The notes under the pieces were generated by a model, which was given only the letters and a program-made list of their open reading frames with translations, did not search any database and was not told the origin of the DNA. DNA of 32,047 nucleotides from a virus: positions 1 to 32,047 of IMG/VR virus record IMGVR_UViG_3300046747_000514; one strand, 5' to 3'. This document shows positions 4,306 through 32,047 of the stretch, one piece after another. The position numbers and the translations under genes are program-made. The number at the start of each line of letters is the position of its first letter. The stretch's first letter is position 1.

Positions 4306-5129
4306 CAGGTTTGTCCTGGCTTACAGTAGGGAGAGTCAGAGGCCCAGGAGACCACAATTGGAGTCTCCTTCGAGAAGGAGTCCGAAAGGGGAGCCTCGGC
4401 CGAAAAGGCCGCAGATAGCGGAGGCTCCTTTGTGAAAACGTCCGGAAGCGGCGTCTCTGGCAGAAACGCATCCGTGATGGGGACTTCATTCTGATAGTTA
4501 CAGGTGACTCCGAACGTCAGCCCGAGAGAGTTGAACCTATAGTTGATGATGAAGCCCGAGATCGCCCACTGGAACGAGATGGGCTCCGCCTGTTGCCAGT
4601 ACGAGGGCCGGAGATAGTTGAGGGCCCGGCGCTCTATCCCAGGTCGAACGTTGCTGCCCTGAAAAGCAGCTGCCGTGATGCCCCGATCCTTATCTTCAAT
4701 GAAGGTTCGGAAGACATTCTGGCGCTGCGCATTGAGCCAAGCTTCCGTCCCATGCTGGAAGGACAGCGGCCGGACATTTGAGCCCTGAGATGCCGCCATC
4801 GTGATGCCCCGATCTTTGTCCAGAATCGGGGTCCAGAACGTATTCTGCCTATAGTAGCTCGCAGAGGTCGGCGCGCCCCGCACGTATTGCAGGGGGCGCT
4901 CGCTTGAACCTTGCATAGCAGACCAAACAATCTTCCGCTCAAAGTCCGGCGTCGGCGTGTAGAAGACGCTCGGGCGCAAATAGTTGTCCCAACCCACAGG
5001 TCCCTTCGAGAACTGCAAGGGACGTGCTTGCACGCCCTGCCAGCTTGCGGCAGAGGAAACTACAATGACTACACCAGACGAAGGTTCTTCGCCTAGTGCA
5101 AGTTCGCCTACTGAACTAAAGCCGGGCAT
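4305..5129 (-). CDS. Repeat-containing structural protein of unknown function
   Basis: This 274-residue protein has two internal repeat systems. Residues ~30-175 carry about three and a half copies of a unit near 42 residues, each with QGSxxRPLxF/Y, then a Tyr/Trp-rich stretch (YLRPSVFYTP, YYRQNTFWTP, AQRQNVFRTF), then DKDRGIT. Near the C-terminus a short unit of about 11 residues repeats four times (PLPDVFTKEPP, PLSAAFSAEAP, PLSDSFSKETP). Between them is a hydrophobic segment (GFIINYRFNSLGLTFGV). The repeats suggest an elongated or multimeric virion part. It lies between the two paralogous structural proteins and the adaptor, so it could be a tail or neck component. I recognise no known family. 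Confidence 0.8.
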   Translation of the reverse strand: MPGFSSVGELALGEEPSSGVVIVVSSAASWQGVQARPLQFSKGPVGWDNYLRPSVFYTPTPDFERKIVWSAMQGSSERPLQYVRGAPTSASYYRQNTFWTPILDKDRGITMAASQGSNVRPLSFQHGTEAWLNAQRQNVFRTFIEDKDRGITAAAFQGSNVRPGIERRALNYLRPSYWQQAEPISFQWAISGFIINYRFNSLGLTFGVTCNYQNEVPITDAFLPETPLPDVFTKEPPLSAAFSAEAPLSDSFSKETPIVVSWASDSPYCKPGQT

Positions 5130-5138
5130 TTCTAGGTC

Positions 5139-5786
5139 CTATGGAACATAAGCAGCAAGTTCTTCCCACTGCGCCGTGAGGGAGAAGGTCCACGTGCCGG
5201 TGGCAGGCACCGTAGCCTCAACTACAAAGCCCTCGTTCTGCGCCAGCACCAGCGGGTACTCGCCCGGCCGAGGCGCGAAGAGCTCACTTGGTATGATAAG
5301 CGGCGTGCCGGCTACGGCCGGAATACTCGTGCTGAGCGAGGCAAAGGGATTGGCATCCTTGGTTCGCGTGCCAGCAGTCAAAGTGGCTGTGGACGACCAC
5401 CGAATGTCACCGACCGTTGTCGTCGCCATCGACGTGCGCAGCTTCTGGTTATTTCCCGTCAGCGTTGCGGCCGTGCCACCCGTGTCAGAGGCCGAAAACG
5501 AGCGGGCGACGAAAGCATTGAATGTGATAACACCAGCAGTAAATGCGGTCGCAGTATTGCCAGCAGAGATAACGAGCTTCTTAAGAACCGCGATATTAGT
5601 TGTGGTCCAACGGAAGGAGAAGATCGGCGAGTTGGCGCCAAGAGCCGCTGCCATAGCACCGGAGACACCTGCAATCGAGAAGATGCCAAGTGCACCATAG
5701 TCAATTGGCTTTGGCGTAATCCGTAATGCTTTGGAGCCTGTCTCCACTTCCGCATTAGCGCTCGTGCCTGCAAGTTGGACGGGCAT
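5139..5786 (-). CDS. Minor structural protein, paralogue of the gene at 5787-6455
   Basis: This 215-residue protein is rich in Ala, Thr, Gly and Ser and probably all-beta. It shares a common plan with its upstream neighbour: SKALRxxxxPxxxGxxGxFSxA near the N-terminus, a hydrophobic strand pair with LKKLVI / LRKVIV, SFSASD/NFSVQH in the middle, DANPFAS/DANPMGA, then a C-terminal block PGEYPLVLAQNEGFVVEATVP ending WEELAAY. The conserved C-terminal PGExP...NEGFxV...QWEEL points to a virion surface or tail-associated fold kept in both copies. The start follows the neighbour's stop directly. Exact role unknown. Confidence 0.8.
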   Translation of the reverse strand: MPVQLAGTSANAEVETGSKALRITPKPIDYGALGIFSIAGVSGAMAAALGANSPIFSFRWTTTNIAVLKKLVISAGNTATAFTAGVITFNAFVARSFSASDTGGTAATLTGNNQKLRTSMATTTVGDIRWSSTATLTAGTRTKDANPFASLSTSIPAVAGTPLIIPSELFAPRPGEYPLVLAQNEGFVVEATVPATGTWTFSLTAQWEELAAYVP

Positions 5787-6455
5787 TTAGTAGCTCTCCA
5801 GTTCTTCCCATTGAAACGCGACGGTTGCACCAATGCTATTGTTGATGCCGGTAGGTACAGCCCACTGCACCTCAAAGCCTTCATTCCTACGCATCAAGTA
5901 CGGGTGCTCTCCAGGCTCTACTGCAAAAATAGGGACACCAGGGGCAAATGTATCTTTGGCGTTTCCAGCGAGCGCTGATATAGCAACGGCCCCCATTGGG
6001 TTCGCGTCCAACGTATAGACGGCACCCGTCATCGCAGCATTGCTGAGGGTGACAAAAACTATGTTGGCGTTCTCTGCACCGTACTCCATACGAGTACGGT
6101 GCTTGTTGCTATGGGCTTGAACTAGAAGCGCGGTCTGGTTCGCATTGTGCTGAACTGAGAAATTACGGGCTGCGAACAATTTTGCAACGTAAGTTCCAGC
6201 AACTGAGTTAAGGTTCGTCGTGATGTTAAAATTAACAATGACTTTGCGCAAGCTTGCAAGCGTAGTTGCCGATAGCCATTGAAAAGTGAGCATTGGCCCA
6301 GCTACAACTTGCGTGCCTGTCACTATAGTCGCAGCAGCCGAGAAAACACCATGCAAATTCGGGTCCACAGGATACTGCACACCACGCAGGGCCTTGGAGT
6401 TAGTCTCGATCTCCGAGATCCCGCCCGTTGTTTCTCCGATGATCTGGAATGGCAT
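5787..6455 (-). CDS. Minor structural protein, paralogue of the gene at 5139-5786
   Basis: This 222-residue protein is a tandem paralogue of the next gene downstream. Shared landmarks are SKALR near residue 20, FSAAATIV, LRKVIVNFNI, LFAARNFSVQ, LDANPMGAVAIS, and the end PGEHPYLMRRNEGFEVQWAVP...FQWEEL. The stop of the upstream gene is directly adjacent to ATG at 6455, and its own stop adjoins the paralogue's ATG at 5786. It probably forms part of the virion, perhaps as a pair with its paralogue in a ring or on the capsid surface. Function is inferred only from position and composition. Confidence 0.8.
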   Translation of the reverse strand: MPFQIIGETTGGISEIETNSKALRGVQYPVDPNLHGVFSAAATIVTGTQVVAGPMLTFQWLSATTLASLRKVIVNFNITTNLNSVAGTYVAKLFAARNFSVQHNANQTALLVQAHSNKHRTRMEYGAENANIVFVTLSNAAMTGAVYTLDANPMGAVAISALAGNAKDTFAPGVPIFAVEPGEHPYLMRRNEGFEVQWAVPTGINNSIGATVAFQWEELESY

Positions 6456-7103
6456 CTAGTTCCAGCTCCAAGCTACGTTCCAAATGCCATAGGTGCGCAG
6501 ATTGCGCACGTTCGCGCCTCTGCGATAGCTGTCGTCCTCCGGCGGCGGATCATTGGCAACGCGGCCGTAGATGGTGAAGCCTGTTCCGGCCACCACGTTT
6601 CCGGCGAACACAATTGGTGGGTCGAGCCAATGCTCGTCAATGGAATGGTCTGCCGTTGCTGCCGGCAACACCCATGCATCGACATTTGAATTTGAGCGGA
6701 TGAATGTCTGCCCCGTGATAGCCACGAGCGCGTCCGTCGCCCCCGGAAACGCTCCAAAGGTCAAGCTAGCTACGCCTTGCTTTCCGAAGTCCTCAGCCAG
6801 GTCCGGGATGCGAAAGACGGCAGCTCCAGCCAAACTCATCTTGGCCGTGCCCGCCGTGCCTCCGATCTTAGAGAGAAAGACCGTATCTCGAGTGAGGCTA
6901 GGTCCTGCGCTGGTGTACGTTCCTTCCCCTTCCTCGAAGTCCGTGCCCTCTTCGAGGATATAGGAGATGATGGAGTTGTTTACAACTCCGGCTTCAGCCG
7001 CCGTGCAAAATGCATTGGAGAAGGCGGAACCGAGTGTGAGTGTTCCCGTGCCCACAGTCGATGTGAGCTGTTTAACTCGATTCGCTAGGATCCTGCTGGT
7101 CAT
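6456..7103 (-). CDS. Structural protein with a GTGTLTLG-type N-terminal module
   Basis: This 215-residue protein starts with RVKQLTSTVGTGTLTLGSAF, followed by ISYILEEGTDFEEGEGTY and SLTRDTVFLS. This is a module I know from phage tail and structural proteins (RV..T.TTGTGT..L.GA...Y.I..G..wE.G.GT....LsRd.v). The C-terminal part has FTIYGRVANDPPPEDDSYRRG and ends with a striking aromatic stretch, LRTYGIWNVAWSWN. The first module is thought to be a beta-sandwich used for virion attachment. It sits among small structural genes. Whether it is a tail or capsid protein is open. Confidence 0.8.
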   Translation of the reverse strand: MTSRILANRVKQLTSTVGTGTLTLGSAFSNAFCTAAEAGVVNNSIISYILEEGTDFEEGEGTYTSAGPSLTRDTVFLSKIGGTAGTAKMSLAGAAVFRIPDLAEDFGKQGVASLTFGAFPGATDALVAITGQTFIRSNSNVDAWVLPAATADHSIDEHWLDPPIVFAGNVVAGTGFTIYGRVANDPPPEDDSYRRGANVRNLRTYGIWNVAWSWN

Positions 7104-29749: not shown

Positions 29750-29770
29750 TTTCATTTGGGGAAACACCAT

Positions 29771-31141
29771 ATGCAGACCATAGATCACACCTCCATCACC
29801 ATCCCCGTGCGCCAACGTAAGGAGCGGCCCCGAGGCTTTCTGGAGAAGCTCAAGGCCAGCATCGTCAGCAAGGGGCTCATGCATCCGCTGGTGCTCTCGA
29901 TCTCGGAGGCCGGCGCCTCCCTCGTCGCGGGCGAAGGCCGCCTGATTGTGCTTCGGGAGCTGCACACGGATGGCATCACCTTCGAGTTCGATGGCAAGGC
30001 CGTCCCGCACGGGCAGATCCCTTTCAGCAGAGTCGGAGACCTCTCGCCAGGGGACCTGGCTGAGGCCGAGCTCGAGGAGAACCTCCTTCGAGCTGCGCTA
30101 ACGTGGCAGGAAGAGCTCGAGGCCAAGGTCCTCATCCACAATCTGCGGAAGGGGCAGAACCCACAGCAGACGGTGATTGCGACTGCCCGGGAGATCGCCG
30201 CCGTCAAGGGCGAAGAGACCACCGTCATTGCCGAGCGGGACTCCCTCTCCCGGTCCATCTTCGTCTCCCAGCACATTGCGAACCCAAAGGTTCGCGCTGC
30301 GAAGACCCTCAACGAGGCCTCCAAAATTGCTCTGGATCAGCTCGAGGCTGGCTTCAAGACGAACCTGCTGGCCCACAATCCCACGCAGTCGCAGCATACG
30401 CTCATCAAGGGAGATCTGCTCACAGTCCTTCCGGACATGGAGACGGGGAGCTTTGATCTGATCTTGGCGGACCCGCCCTATGGGATCAACGCGGACGAGT
30501 ATAGAACCATCACCAAAATTGCCGGGGAGAAAAAGCACCATGAGGGGCACTTCTACAAGGACGACGAGGGGCATTCCGATCTCATCTGCAACACGATCTT
30601 CCGTCAAGGCTTTCGTCTCCTTCGTCCTCGCGGTCTTCTCTTTCTCTTTTGTGACGTTGATCGTTTTGCTAAGCTTCGTGAAGTTGCCATGATGCAGGGC
30701 TTTAGCTCCTGGCGGACTCCGATCATCTGGCATAAGACGGGGGCAAATGCGGGCTTCGCACCCTGGGGCGCCGGCGGCTTTATTCGAAGCTACGAGATGC
30801 TGCTCTTCCTCAGCAAGGGGCGGAAGACCCTGACGATGCCGGGCGGCCAGGACGTGCTCCCCTTCACCCGAGTTCATCACACCGACCGCATTCATGCCGC
30901 GGAGAAGCCGGCTGGCCTCATCTCCCGCCTGATTCAGCTCTCCTGTATCCCCGGAGACTCAGTGCTTGACCCGTGCTGTGGCTCAGGTGTCATCTTCGAA
31001 GCTGCTTCTGCCTGTAGCGTGGTGGCGACGGGAATTGAGATTGACCCAGAATACCATGCGTTTTCCGCAAGCCGACTCCTTGCCACTGTGGAGACTGAGG
31101 AAGACCTTCCAGAAGATACCACAGCAGGAATGGAGGGCTGA
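29771..31141 (+). CDS. ParB-domain DNA methyltransferase fusion
   Basis: This 456-residue protein starts at ATG 29771, with GGGGAA seven bases upstream (a TTG at 29756 is the alternative). Residues ~1-120 form a ParB/Srx-like domain: GEGRLIVLREL near 54-64 and AELEENLLRAALTWQEELEA near 98-117. After a linker, residues ~205-440 form an amino-methyltransferase with DPPYG at 234-238 (ILADPPYGIN) and the AdoMet-binding motif LDPCCGSGVIFEA at ~399-411, an order typical of the beta class of N6-adenine/N4-cytosine enzymes. It likely protects phage DNA from host restriction. The next gene starts at its stop. Confidence 0.85.
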   Translation: MQTIDHTSITIPVRQRKERPRGFLEKLKASIVSKGLMHPLVLSISEAGASLVAGEGRLIVLRELHTDGITFEFDGKAVPHGQIPFSRVGDLSPGDLAEAELEENLLRAALTWQEELEAKVLIHNLRKGQNPQQTVIATAREIAAVKGEETTVIAERDSLSRSIFVSQHIANPKVRAAKTLNEASKIALDQLEAGFKTNLLAHNPTQSQHTLIKGDLLTVLPDMETGSFDLILADPPYGINADEYRTITKIAGEKKHHEGHFYKDDEGHSDLICNTIFRQGFRLLRPRGLLFLFCDVDRFAKLREVAMMQGFSSWRTPIIWHKTGANAGFAPWGAGGFIRSYEMLLFLSKGRKTLTMPGGQDVLPFTRVHHTDRIHAAEKPAGLISRLIQLSCIPGDSVLDPCCGSGVIFEAASACSVVATGIEIDPEYHAFSASRLLATVETEEDLPEDTTAGMEG

Positions 31142-32047
31142 TGGAAGACCTGTTCAAAGGAACAAGCGGCCCACAGGATGCGAAGGTGCTTCTAGTCGGA
31201 GAAGCCTACGGTGAAGAGGAGCACCGGGAGGGCAAGCCTTTTGTCGGCACCAGCGGCTGGTTCCTCAACAAGATGCTGAAGGAGGCCGGGCTCAACCGAG
31301 ACGCAGTCCTCTGCACGAACGTCATCAACAGGCGGCCGCCGGCCAACGACTTCAACCACTTCCTCACATCAAAAGAGCAGAGCAAAGGAGCGAAAAGTGT
31401 CCTCGGAATACGTGCCGGCGCTGACCTTCATCAGGGAGTGGCTGCGCTTTCGCGACTCGTCGAAGCTGTCAATCCGTCCCTTATCATTGCCGCAGGAAAT
31501 TGGCCACTATGGGCTCTTTCGCCTCACGCTGTGGTCAAGACAGTCAAAGGCTATCAGCACCCTACTGGCATTGCCAACTGGAGAGGAAGTCAAACGTACG
31601 CTCGAGATGCTCGAGCTGATGGAAGCAAGCGCCCGCTCCTTCCAATCTACCATCCTGCAGCCATTACCAGGGAGTACAAGCTTCGGGCCGTGACGGTGCA
31701 TGACCTGGGGGCCCGGGCCGCCCGCTTCCTCCGGGGAAACACAAAGTGGGAAGCCCCGACTGTTTGGGTCCAACACAAGCCCGACTACGTCACCGTGATG
31801 CAGTTCCTCCAGAGCTTCAAGGAAAAACATGGCTGGCTTTCGGTCGACATCGAGACTTATCGACGGAGATGGATCTCGTGCGTCGGTCTCGCAGACTCCG
31901 CGCGGTCTGGCCTTTGCATACCGTTTTTTTCCTTTTCCCCTGAAGGGAGATACATTCCTTATTGGACCTCAGAGCAAGAAATTTCGATTTGGCAGGTCCT
32001 CCGGGAAGTTCTTCAGGACCCTAGGACCCGTATCATTGGTCAAAACT
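31141..32047 (+). CDS. Uracil-DNA glycosylase domain fused to family A DNA polymerase exonuclease (3' end cut by window)
   Basis: The frame from ATG 31141 stays open to the right edge (302 codons) and overlaps the previous stop by one base. Residues 16-50 contain VLLVGEAYGEEEHREGKPFV and the TSGWFLNKML helix; TNVINRRPPAN is at 59-69; HPAAITREYK at 171-180. These are the three family-4/5 UDG motifs, with the final H171. From ~230 a second domain begins: WLSVDIET with D236 and E238 (Exo I), and the last visible residues RIIGQN fit Exo II of a DEDDy exonuclease as in Pol I. This points to a polymerase with an attached glycosylase-like domain. Confidence 0.8.
   Translation, partial: MEDLFKGTSGPQDAKVLLVGEAYGEEEHREGKPFVGTSGWFLNKMLKEAGLNRDAVLCTNVINRRPPANDFNHFLTSKEQSKGAKSVLGIRAGADLHQGVAALSRLVEAVNPSLIIAAGNWPLWALSPHAVVKTVKGYQHPTGIANWRGSQTYARDARADGSKRPLLPIYHPAAITREYKLRAVTVHDLGARAARFLRGNTKWEAPTVWVQHKPDYVTVMQFLQSFKEKHGWLSVDIETYRRRWISCVGLADSARSGLCIPFFSFSPEGRYIPYWTSEQEISIWQVLREVLQDPRTRIIGQN

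Follow-up and report, generated by a model that had tools for sequence, protein, structure and literature searches.

A phage family A DNA polymerase with a uracil-DNA glycosylase-like domain, apparently encoded by two genes and divided at a loop before motif A

Family A DNA polymerases (PolA) are textbook single chains. In phages, systems have been described in which this chain is either divided or extended. In the OM43 phages MEP401 and MEP402, according to the available text of PMC10580990, PolA is cut into an N-terminal part (exonuclease and first polymerase part) and a C-terminal part with a small open reading frame (ORF) between them, i.e. a PolA cut between the NLQN motif and motif A is already published. 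In the case of the LUZ24-like phages, represented by UFV-P2, the accessible portion of PMC3890496 lists a DNA polymerase part I and part II, with PolA in two genes and other genes between. Furthermore, gp31 of phage SPO1 (FJ230960) carries an N-terminal uracil-DNA glycosylase (UDG)-fold domain on a family A polymerase. Here we describe a locus in which both features come together. The window, by which we mean the whole stretch of DNA analysed (32,047 nucleotides of the IMG/VR virus record IMGVR_UViG_3300046747_000514), ends within a plus-strand ORF of 302 codons that begins with ATG, is still open at the record end and joins a UDG-like domain to the start of a PolA exonuclease (Table 1). We propose, with a probability of roughly 0.6, that this ORF encodes the larger subunit of a phage DNA polymerase made from two genes, with a uracil-surveying UDG domain, and that the break between the two genes acts as an insertion slot.

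Because the window is the complete record and ends at 32047, direct extension was not possible. A second record, IMGVR_UViG_3300046792_000341 (41,413 bases; locus L002), is identical at 5898 of 5907 overlapping bases and is the same phage, or nearly so. In L002 the gene runs from 5001 to 6719 and encodes 572 amino acids, ending after ...GTNLQNLPTVKD. The initial annotation had made the fusion depend on the frame staying open just past 32047; no stop or frameshift lies there, but the frame does end further on, at the equivalent of window position 32859. This end lies inside the palm, just before motif A and 4 residues past NLQNLP. The 572-residue protein contains the exonuclease (PF01612, 2.3e-15, residues 232-392) as well as the thumb and first palm segment (PF00476 profile positions 33-133, 4.2e-5, under the cut-off), and since the frame stops within the palm, the N chain consists only of UDG, exonuclease and the thumb with the first part of the palm. 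Twelve bases 3' of this gene follows a 574-residue adenosylcobalamin (B12)-dependent ribonucleotide reductase (RNR; PF02867 2.4e-104; TIGR02504 504.7 bits, over cut-off), and 16 bases after the RNR a 267-residue C half of PolA (L002 8473-9276; PF00476 profile positions 138-342, 5.2e-20). The C half holds motif A (DVDLSGADAQ), motif B and motif C (QVHDS), so that the exonuclease motifs and motifs A, B and C of a family A polymerase are all present, distributed over two genes. Shine-Dalgarno-like sequences (GGGGGA and GAGGTG) stand directly upstream of the RNR and C-half starts. The polymerase had been expected as one chain; in L002 it is divided by the RNR gene.

The glycosylase-like domain proposed in the initial annotation, fused in frame to the exonuclease of a family A polymerase, was borne out by the family searches. 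The N-terminal domain belongs to the UDG superfamily (73.6 bits against a cut-off of 24.3 for PF03167), and the exonuclease match appears in the full-length gene; Pfam did not report it on the 302 window residues alone, and PHROGs gave no match for the window ORF. The motifs previously read in the translation, including VDIET of Exo I, were all found at the residues given in Table 1. To model the 572-residue protein, AlphaFold was run on a 79-sequence alignment, giving a predicted local distance difference test score (pLDDT) of 94.6 and a predicted template-modelling score (pTM) of 0.91; this alignment-based model was used instead of a single-sequence one, which was discarded (pLDDT 33.5). Residues 1-200 of the model superpose on the family 4 UDG 4zbx with a Z-score of 21.7 (root-mean-square deviation 2.0 Å, 167 aligned residues) and on 1ui1 with 21.5, as the initial annotation had anticipated for a fold search. 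In the case of residues 205-572, matches were to phage G20c Pol I (Z 22.4) and to Klenow residues 324-684 (1kfd, Z 21.2), residue 684 being the point on Klenow where the N-half model ends. In the alignment to Thermus thermophilus UDG, E21, E27, F34, N60, N69 and H171 (HPAA) are kept, and these include the four catalytic-type residues E, E, N and H of family 4 (E21, E27, N69 and H171). The role of each of these motif residues is known from the family 4 enzymes.

To see how far the split extends, relatives were gathered from viral contigs with N-half and C-half alignments (a single C-half protein returned the same contig only, the C-half alignment many), and the best 80 of 209 and the best 80 of 369 were kept. 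Loci without UDG, POLN and POLC matches were dropped (162 of 189 kept), leaving 114 distinct members at 95%, window phage included, on which four modules were mapped to call the split state. Five pairs at near-zero distance (L036/L037, L068/L144, L051/L123, L096/L097 and L109/L110) bring the truly distinct members to about 109. In 54 of the 114, Vibrio phage VS-ABTNL-3 among them, a break before motif A divides the polymerase, and 60 lack a split there; as the searches were seeded with split proteins and the best relatives were kept, split genomes are over-represented and this fraction is not a prevalence. The initial annotation had supposed that the fusion was confined to a few phages. UDG and the polymerase N half share one chain in 109 of the 114 members, all found by similarity to the window protein, and UDG-PolA fusions are already known, many phage relatives sharing the predicted domain order. 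Four of the 60 unsplit members have the UDG (with exonuclease) on a chain separate from the polymerase part, and L146, counted among the 54, shows a three-way split into UDG, exonuclease plus thumb, and palm/fingers genes.

The position of the break is well defined. In 53 of the 54 split members, L173 being the exception, the N half ends 3-8 residues past NLQNIP, and a HMMER alignment using the unsplit protein of Mel-JY34 maps the break to the loop NLQNIPIRLEE/GRKIRQAF of the Bst polymerase, before motif A. Gaps between the halves range from -8 to 2899 bp. Elsewhere the break differs: in Kuura it lies inside the exonuclease (Exo III being in the second gene), and in MW202554 after the exonuclease, with a 151-bp gap. 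Both halves retain their catalytic residues. Exonuclease D236, E238 and D377, palm R550 and the motif A Asp are invariant in 114 of 114 rows and exonuclease D306 in 113, while in the split rows alone D236, E238, D306, D377 and the motif A Asp are invariant (54/54). The HD of motif C is present in all 106 rows with data, including 50 of 50 split ones. The ratio of nonsynonymous to synonymous substitution rates (dN/dS) is 0.07-0.17 in both halves over the 25 close pairs listed, which amount to about seven independent comparisons in two clades, none with the window phage. Shine-Dalgarno-like signals precede 38 of 54 C-half starts vs 7 of 53 internal start codons, counts of little weight, as the best of several candidate starts was taken.

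Three further observations concern the polymerase sequence itself. At the motif B position of Bst Y714 (E. coli 762), the C half at L002 8473-9276 and its relatives carry His (KRGVHGTNY); this holds for 52 of the 54 split members and for 55 of the 60 unsplit ones. A virioplankton survey, as far as its text was available (PMC6302109), describes Phe, Tyr and Leu types at the 762 position, and a term search of its main text did not return 'histidine' or 'His762'. In L129 (3548-5998), whose polymerase is already split, an intein lies between exonuclease and thumb (PF14890, 1.1e-9). The polymerase ORFs of L094, L104, L106 and L110 contain a Cys-to-Asn insert of about 285-310 residues inside motif B, likewise read as an intein; the inserts of L094 and L106, the two scanned, gave no Pfam match.

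We then looked at what fills the gap. Of the 76 ORFs found in gaps, 15 fall into a single cluster, and the three of these that were scanned are dUTPases. In whole-record searches, 22 of 53 split records and 1 of 53 unsplit ones gave a dUTPase (PF00692) match, and of the 22 split matches 20 exceeded the family cut-off; the tally is made up of 21/50 split (19 over cut-off) plus L036, and of 1/48 plus 0/5 unsplit. These counts leave out one of the 54 split records (L068, almost identical to L144) and 7 of the 60 unsplit ones, and as many records are fragments, absence of a gene is weak evidence. Twenty of the 22 dUTPases lie in the gap (positions converted by hand from contig coordinates), and the two others, in the sisters L147 and L178, precede the N gene by about 20 and 245 bp. 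In the record of VS-ABTNL-3 PF00692 was not found. Of the 50 records searched for RNR, 42 of them split and 8 unsplit, four contain the gene, each time in the gap. Other gap genes encode HD/YfbR-like, DUF3310, DUF7768, RNase_T, SNase, Lon_C and methyltransferase proteins, and 7 of the 20 in-gap ORFs scanned had no Pfam match at E 0.01. A 136-residue gap ORF in L144 (5221-5631), also present in L068, gave a sub-threshold dUTPase match in L144 (E 0.13) and is possibly, going by that match, a decayed dUTPase in the same slot.

The split label was fixed before any tree was made. A FastTree phylogeny of 114 rows implies 12 changes of split state, of which at least 6 are forced by well supported branches; an IQ-TREE phylogeny of 60 rows, chosen after seeing the first tree, implies 11, at least 4 of them forced. 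A single clade for all split rows was rejected (approximately unbiased test, p-AU 4e-11, 60 rows). In the FastTree phylogeny, the four RNR-bearing phages, including the window phage, form a clade (support 99) inside an all-split clade of 33 rows (98). The two trees place some rows differently (L056, L148 and L172). As neither tree gives a direction, repeated splitting and an ancient split followed by several re-fusions are equally possible. An HNH endonuclease lies in the gap of L158 (PF13392, 1.7e-7), and such a gap gene would fit, as a suggestion, a homing-endonuclease origin for some of the splits.

Altogether, these observations suggest the following model. The N chain would provide the UDG fold, the 3'-5' exonuclease, the thumb and the first palm part, and the small second gene past the B12-dependent RNR gene would provide the rest of the palm, the fingers and motifs A, B and C. 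From the conservation of catalytic residues in both halves we infer that the two chains, translated separately, would fold together into one Klenow-like family A polymerase. The UDG domain, keeping the uracil-binding and uracil-excising residues of family 4, would most likely check the DNA at the fork for uracil and, in relatives carrying a dUTPase, act jointly with it to keep uracil out of the phage genome. Exclusion of uracil by the domain is plausible, and the dUTPase genes inside or just upstream of relatives' polymerase genes fit such a role, while the RNR between the polymerase genes of the window phage fits a supply of deoxynucleoside triphosphates (dNTPs). The loop before motif A would tolerate cutting and may have become an insertion slot, often for dNTP-pool genes. 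A bolder version, which we regard as doubtful, is that the loop was cut or re-fused several times, that the gap is a docking slot for dUTPase or RNR, and that the halves and dNTP enzymes, translated side by side, may form one uracil-excluding complex with the UDG domain as sensor.

Several observations weigh against the proposal of a two-gene, uracil-surveying polymerase with an insertion slot. Across the split in the window phage, L002 is the only assembly that reads through. The Fe-S cysteines of family 4 are absent from the window protein: no Cys precedes motif 1, R64 replaces the Cys of KCRPPxN, and in that column Cys is outside the six commonest residues listed, in the split and unsplit groups alike. 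The family 4 model TIGR00758 gives 79.7 bits against a cut-off of 125.3, and the UdgX model TIGR03914 gives 52.8 against 189.95. Since the distant relatives MW202455 (181.4 bits) and MW202554 (142.9 bits) exceed the TIGR00758 cut-off, the Fe-S cluster was probably lost within the UDG-PolA group. Nine of the 54 split rows (a tenth is truncated in this region) and 24 of the 60 unsplit ones differ at one or more of the four UDG residues, and thus uracil excision cannot be essential family-wide. Between L160, whose UDG motif is degenerate, and its near relative L157, dN/dS is 0.14 in the UDG domain and 0.02-0.07 in the other domains, a sign of some other role, though the UDG domain is the least constrained of the four. 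Finally, all 20 in-gap dUTPases fall within one 28-row clade, hence represent few independent events, and PF00692 was not found in the 41.4-kb contig of the window phage.

Vaccinia D4 is a UDG. The main rival to a uracil-surveying role is that the domain serves, like D4, chiefly as a DNA tether or processivity module in which catalysis is optional; it owes this rank to the 33 of 114 rows in which a motif residue is changed while the domain persists, and purifying selection on the domain in the L160/L157 pair agrees with it, as does the vaccinia polymerase E9, which works with the heterodimer A20/D4 (available part of PMC5682278). However, 80 of 114 rows (44/54 split, 36/60 unsplit and all four RNR-bearing ones) retain the full set E, E, N and H, more than a pure tether needs, and we consider the tether rather unlikely as the main role. 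Among the 26 split rows to which a dUTPase or RNR was assigned, 25 keep all four residues, the exception, L046, being cut short there; in the remaining 88, among which the unsplit dUTPase record L179 is counted, they are intact in 55. As the rows share ancestry, we read this as a pattern and not as a test. In the window phage, with its motifs intact, the domain probably senses or removes uracil at the fork. The initial annotation had also raised recognition of a modified base such as hydroxymethyluracil (hmU) in the phage's own DNA. In its favour, a dUMP hydroxymethylase is annotated in SPO1, whose gp31 bears the UDG-fold domain, the UDG-PolA of MW202455 adjoins genes annotated as pyrimidine hydroxymethylase and thymidylate synthase, and the title of the solved phiLo polymerase structure (9qhs) contains the words 'with modified template'. 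Against this, the UDG motifs are those of uracil enzymes, and PF00303, the thymidylate-synthase family, was found neither in the contig of the window phage (ThyX not searched) nor in 49 of the 50 records searched, the single match being MW202455, in a search with no known hmU phage as positive control. The suggestion is unsupported for the window phage and we judge it improbable. Near the polymerase of MW202455.1 (L027) are also genes annotated as FAD-dependent thymidylate synthase and thymidylate kinase, and by its annotated neighbourhood it would be the better modified-base candidate of the two.

It might also be asked whether the two genes yield one chain after all, the halves being rejoined by an intron or a split intein. 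Here, SPO1 gp31 is annotated with an intron, the authors of the OM43 phage study proposed one for their split PolA (available text of PMC10580990), and inteins are present in relatives. On the other hand, many gaps are filled by unrelated genes, in 7 of the 54 the halves lie only -8 to +7 bp apart, which leaves no room for an intron, and the N halves end right past NLQNIP. Known group I or II introns at the break were searched for and discarded (a scan of 11 loci from 10 records gave no Rfam match at the gathering score, and an undescribed intron type would escape it), and so was a split intein, as Pfam found no intein family in either half of the window-phage polymerase, whose N half closes so soon after NLQNLP. 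Rejoining appears very improbable. The reading that the split reflects a decaying gene or a faulty assembly, with another polymerase in use, could draw on the single contig across the window-phage split, although near-identical records may be left out of the search. It is largely refuted by the occurrence of the break in 53 other members, including an isolate genome, together with the invariant catalytic residues in both halves and the low dN/dS in close pairs of relatives.

Table 1. Features of the window around the polymerase gene.
Feature	Position	Strand	Details
ORF, N-terminal gene of split UDG-exonuclease-PolA	31141..32047	+	302 aa; full gene 572 aa, L002 5001-6719
UDG-superfamily domain, residues 10-179	31168..31677	+	PF03167 2.2e-20; family-4-like fold without Fe-S cysteines
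UDG motif 1 GEAYGEEE, residues 20-27	31198..31221	+	E21 and E27 align with T. thermophilus UDG chain residues 41 and 47
NRRPPAN, residues 63-69	31327..31347	+	N69 aligns with N89 of T. thermophilus UDG
UDG motif 2 HPAAI, residues 171-175 (H171)	31651..31665	+	motif read in translation, plus family conservation
PolA 3'-5' exonuclease domain start, residues 205-302	31753..32047	+	Exo I D236, E238; model vs Klenow
Upstream gene, ParB-like N part and N6/N4 DNA methylase	29756..31141	+	PF01555 1.8e-23; phrog_67; weak phrog_3264 ParB

With regard to the surroundings, the upstream methylase gene overlaps the polymerase start by 1 base, its TTG start being the choice of the ORF program. A methylase is also found upstream of the polymerase in three named relatives, with one to four genes between. 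Further upstream, the plus-strand ORF 26202-26864 matches an outer-membrane beta-barrel (PF13505 2e-11, PF01389) and overlaps the end of a PDDEXK nuclease gene, which is odd company for a phage replication region. A scan of genome contigs gave two distant matches only, both to metagenome-assembled genomes, and a host was not assigned.

Other phage genes in pieces include split T4-like gene 43 and Aeh1 NrdA. Here an environmental phage group appears to run its family A polymerase as two chains, cut through the palm repeatedly at one place, with a uracil-glycosylase-like domain on the larger chain. SPO1 had been named as the comparable fusion, and gp31 is a true relative; its UDG domain has lost the catalytic motif, QENPFDYEY replacing GExPGEEE, and is hence a poor guide to activity here, and the gene is interrupted by an annotated intron, not divided into separate genes. 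Family 4 UDG models have been described as related to the SPO1 polymerase, and the PDB names agree. In the case of the phiLo family A polymerase (9qhs), the second-best Foldseek match, 652 columns were aligned with low TM-scores over the whole length (0.26/0.14). It is a single chain of 1142 residues whose N-terminus weakly matches the UDG part by sequence (E 0.0032), and from these matches, a phage PolA with a UDG-like part has probably already been solved. The LUZ24-like cut lies between the exonuclease and polymerase parts (171 and 546 residues), and the accessible portion of PMC3890496 mentions no UDG. In the group 2.2 jumbo phages (PMC7824862, available text), it is the polymerase III alpha subunit that occurs as separate proteins, an unrelated family with distant genes. 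The available text of the Kuura paper (PMC9959647) names a DNA polymerase and does not contain the terms 'split' or 'uracil'.

A close published case is that of MEP401. The polymerase described here is likewise divided into two genes between NLQN and motif A, but the position differs, the MEP401/402 break lying by eye about 10-15 residues nearer motif A, and a UDG is present here. MEP401 gp13 begins at Exo I, so a UDG segment is apparently absent there, as judged from the gp13 start and not from a family scan. Their gap holds a small ORF of no known function, vs RNR or dUTPase here, and their RNR gene lies elsewhere (available text of PMC10580990). In the literature covered, mostly outside subscription journals, no account was found of a split UDG-PolA, of recurrence at one loop, or of dUTPase or RNR in the break. 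These phages offer natural two-part polymerases for study, and they allow one to ask directly if uracil sensing and dNTP supply are coupled to DNA synthesis in phages. Two named phages belong to the same UDG-exonuclease-polymerase family. In Microcystis phage Mel-JY34 the polymerase is one chain of 810 residues, whereas in Vibrio phage vB_VspS_VS-ABTNL-3 (PVS_29/28/27) it is split at the same loop as here into halves of about 568 and 298 residues, with a 184-residue ORF without Pfam match in the gap and the UDG residues partly lost (EDNS), so that a named isolate carries such a two-part polymerase.

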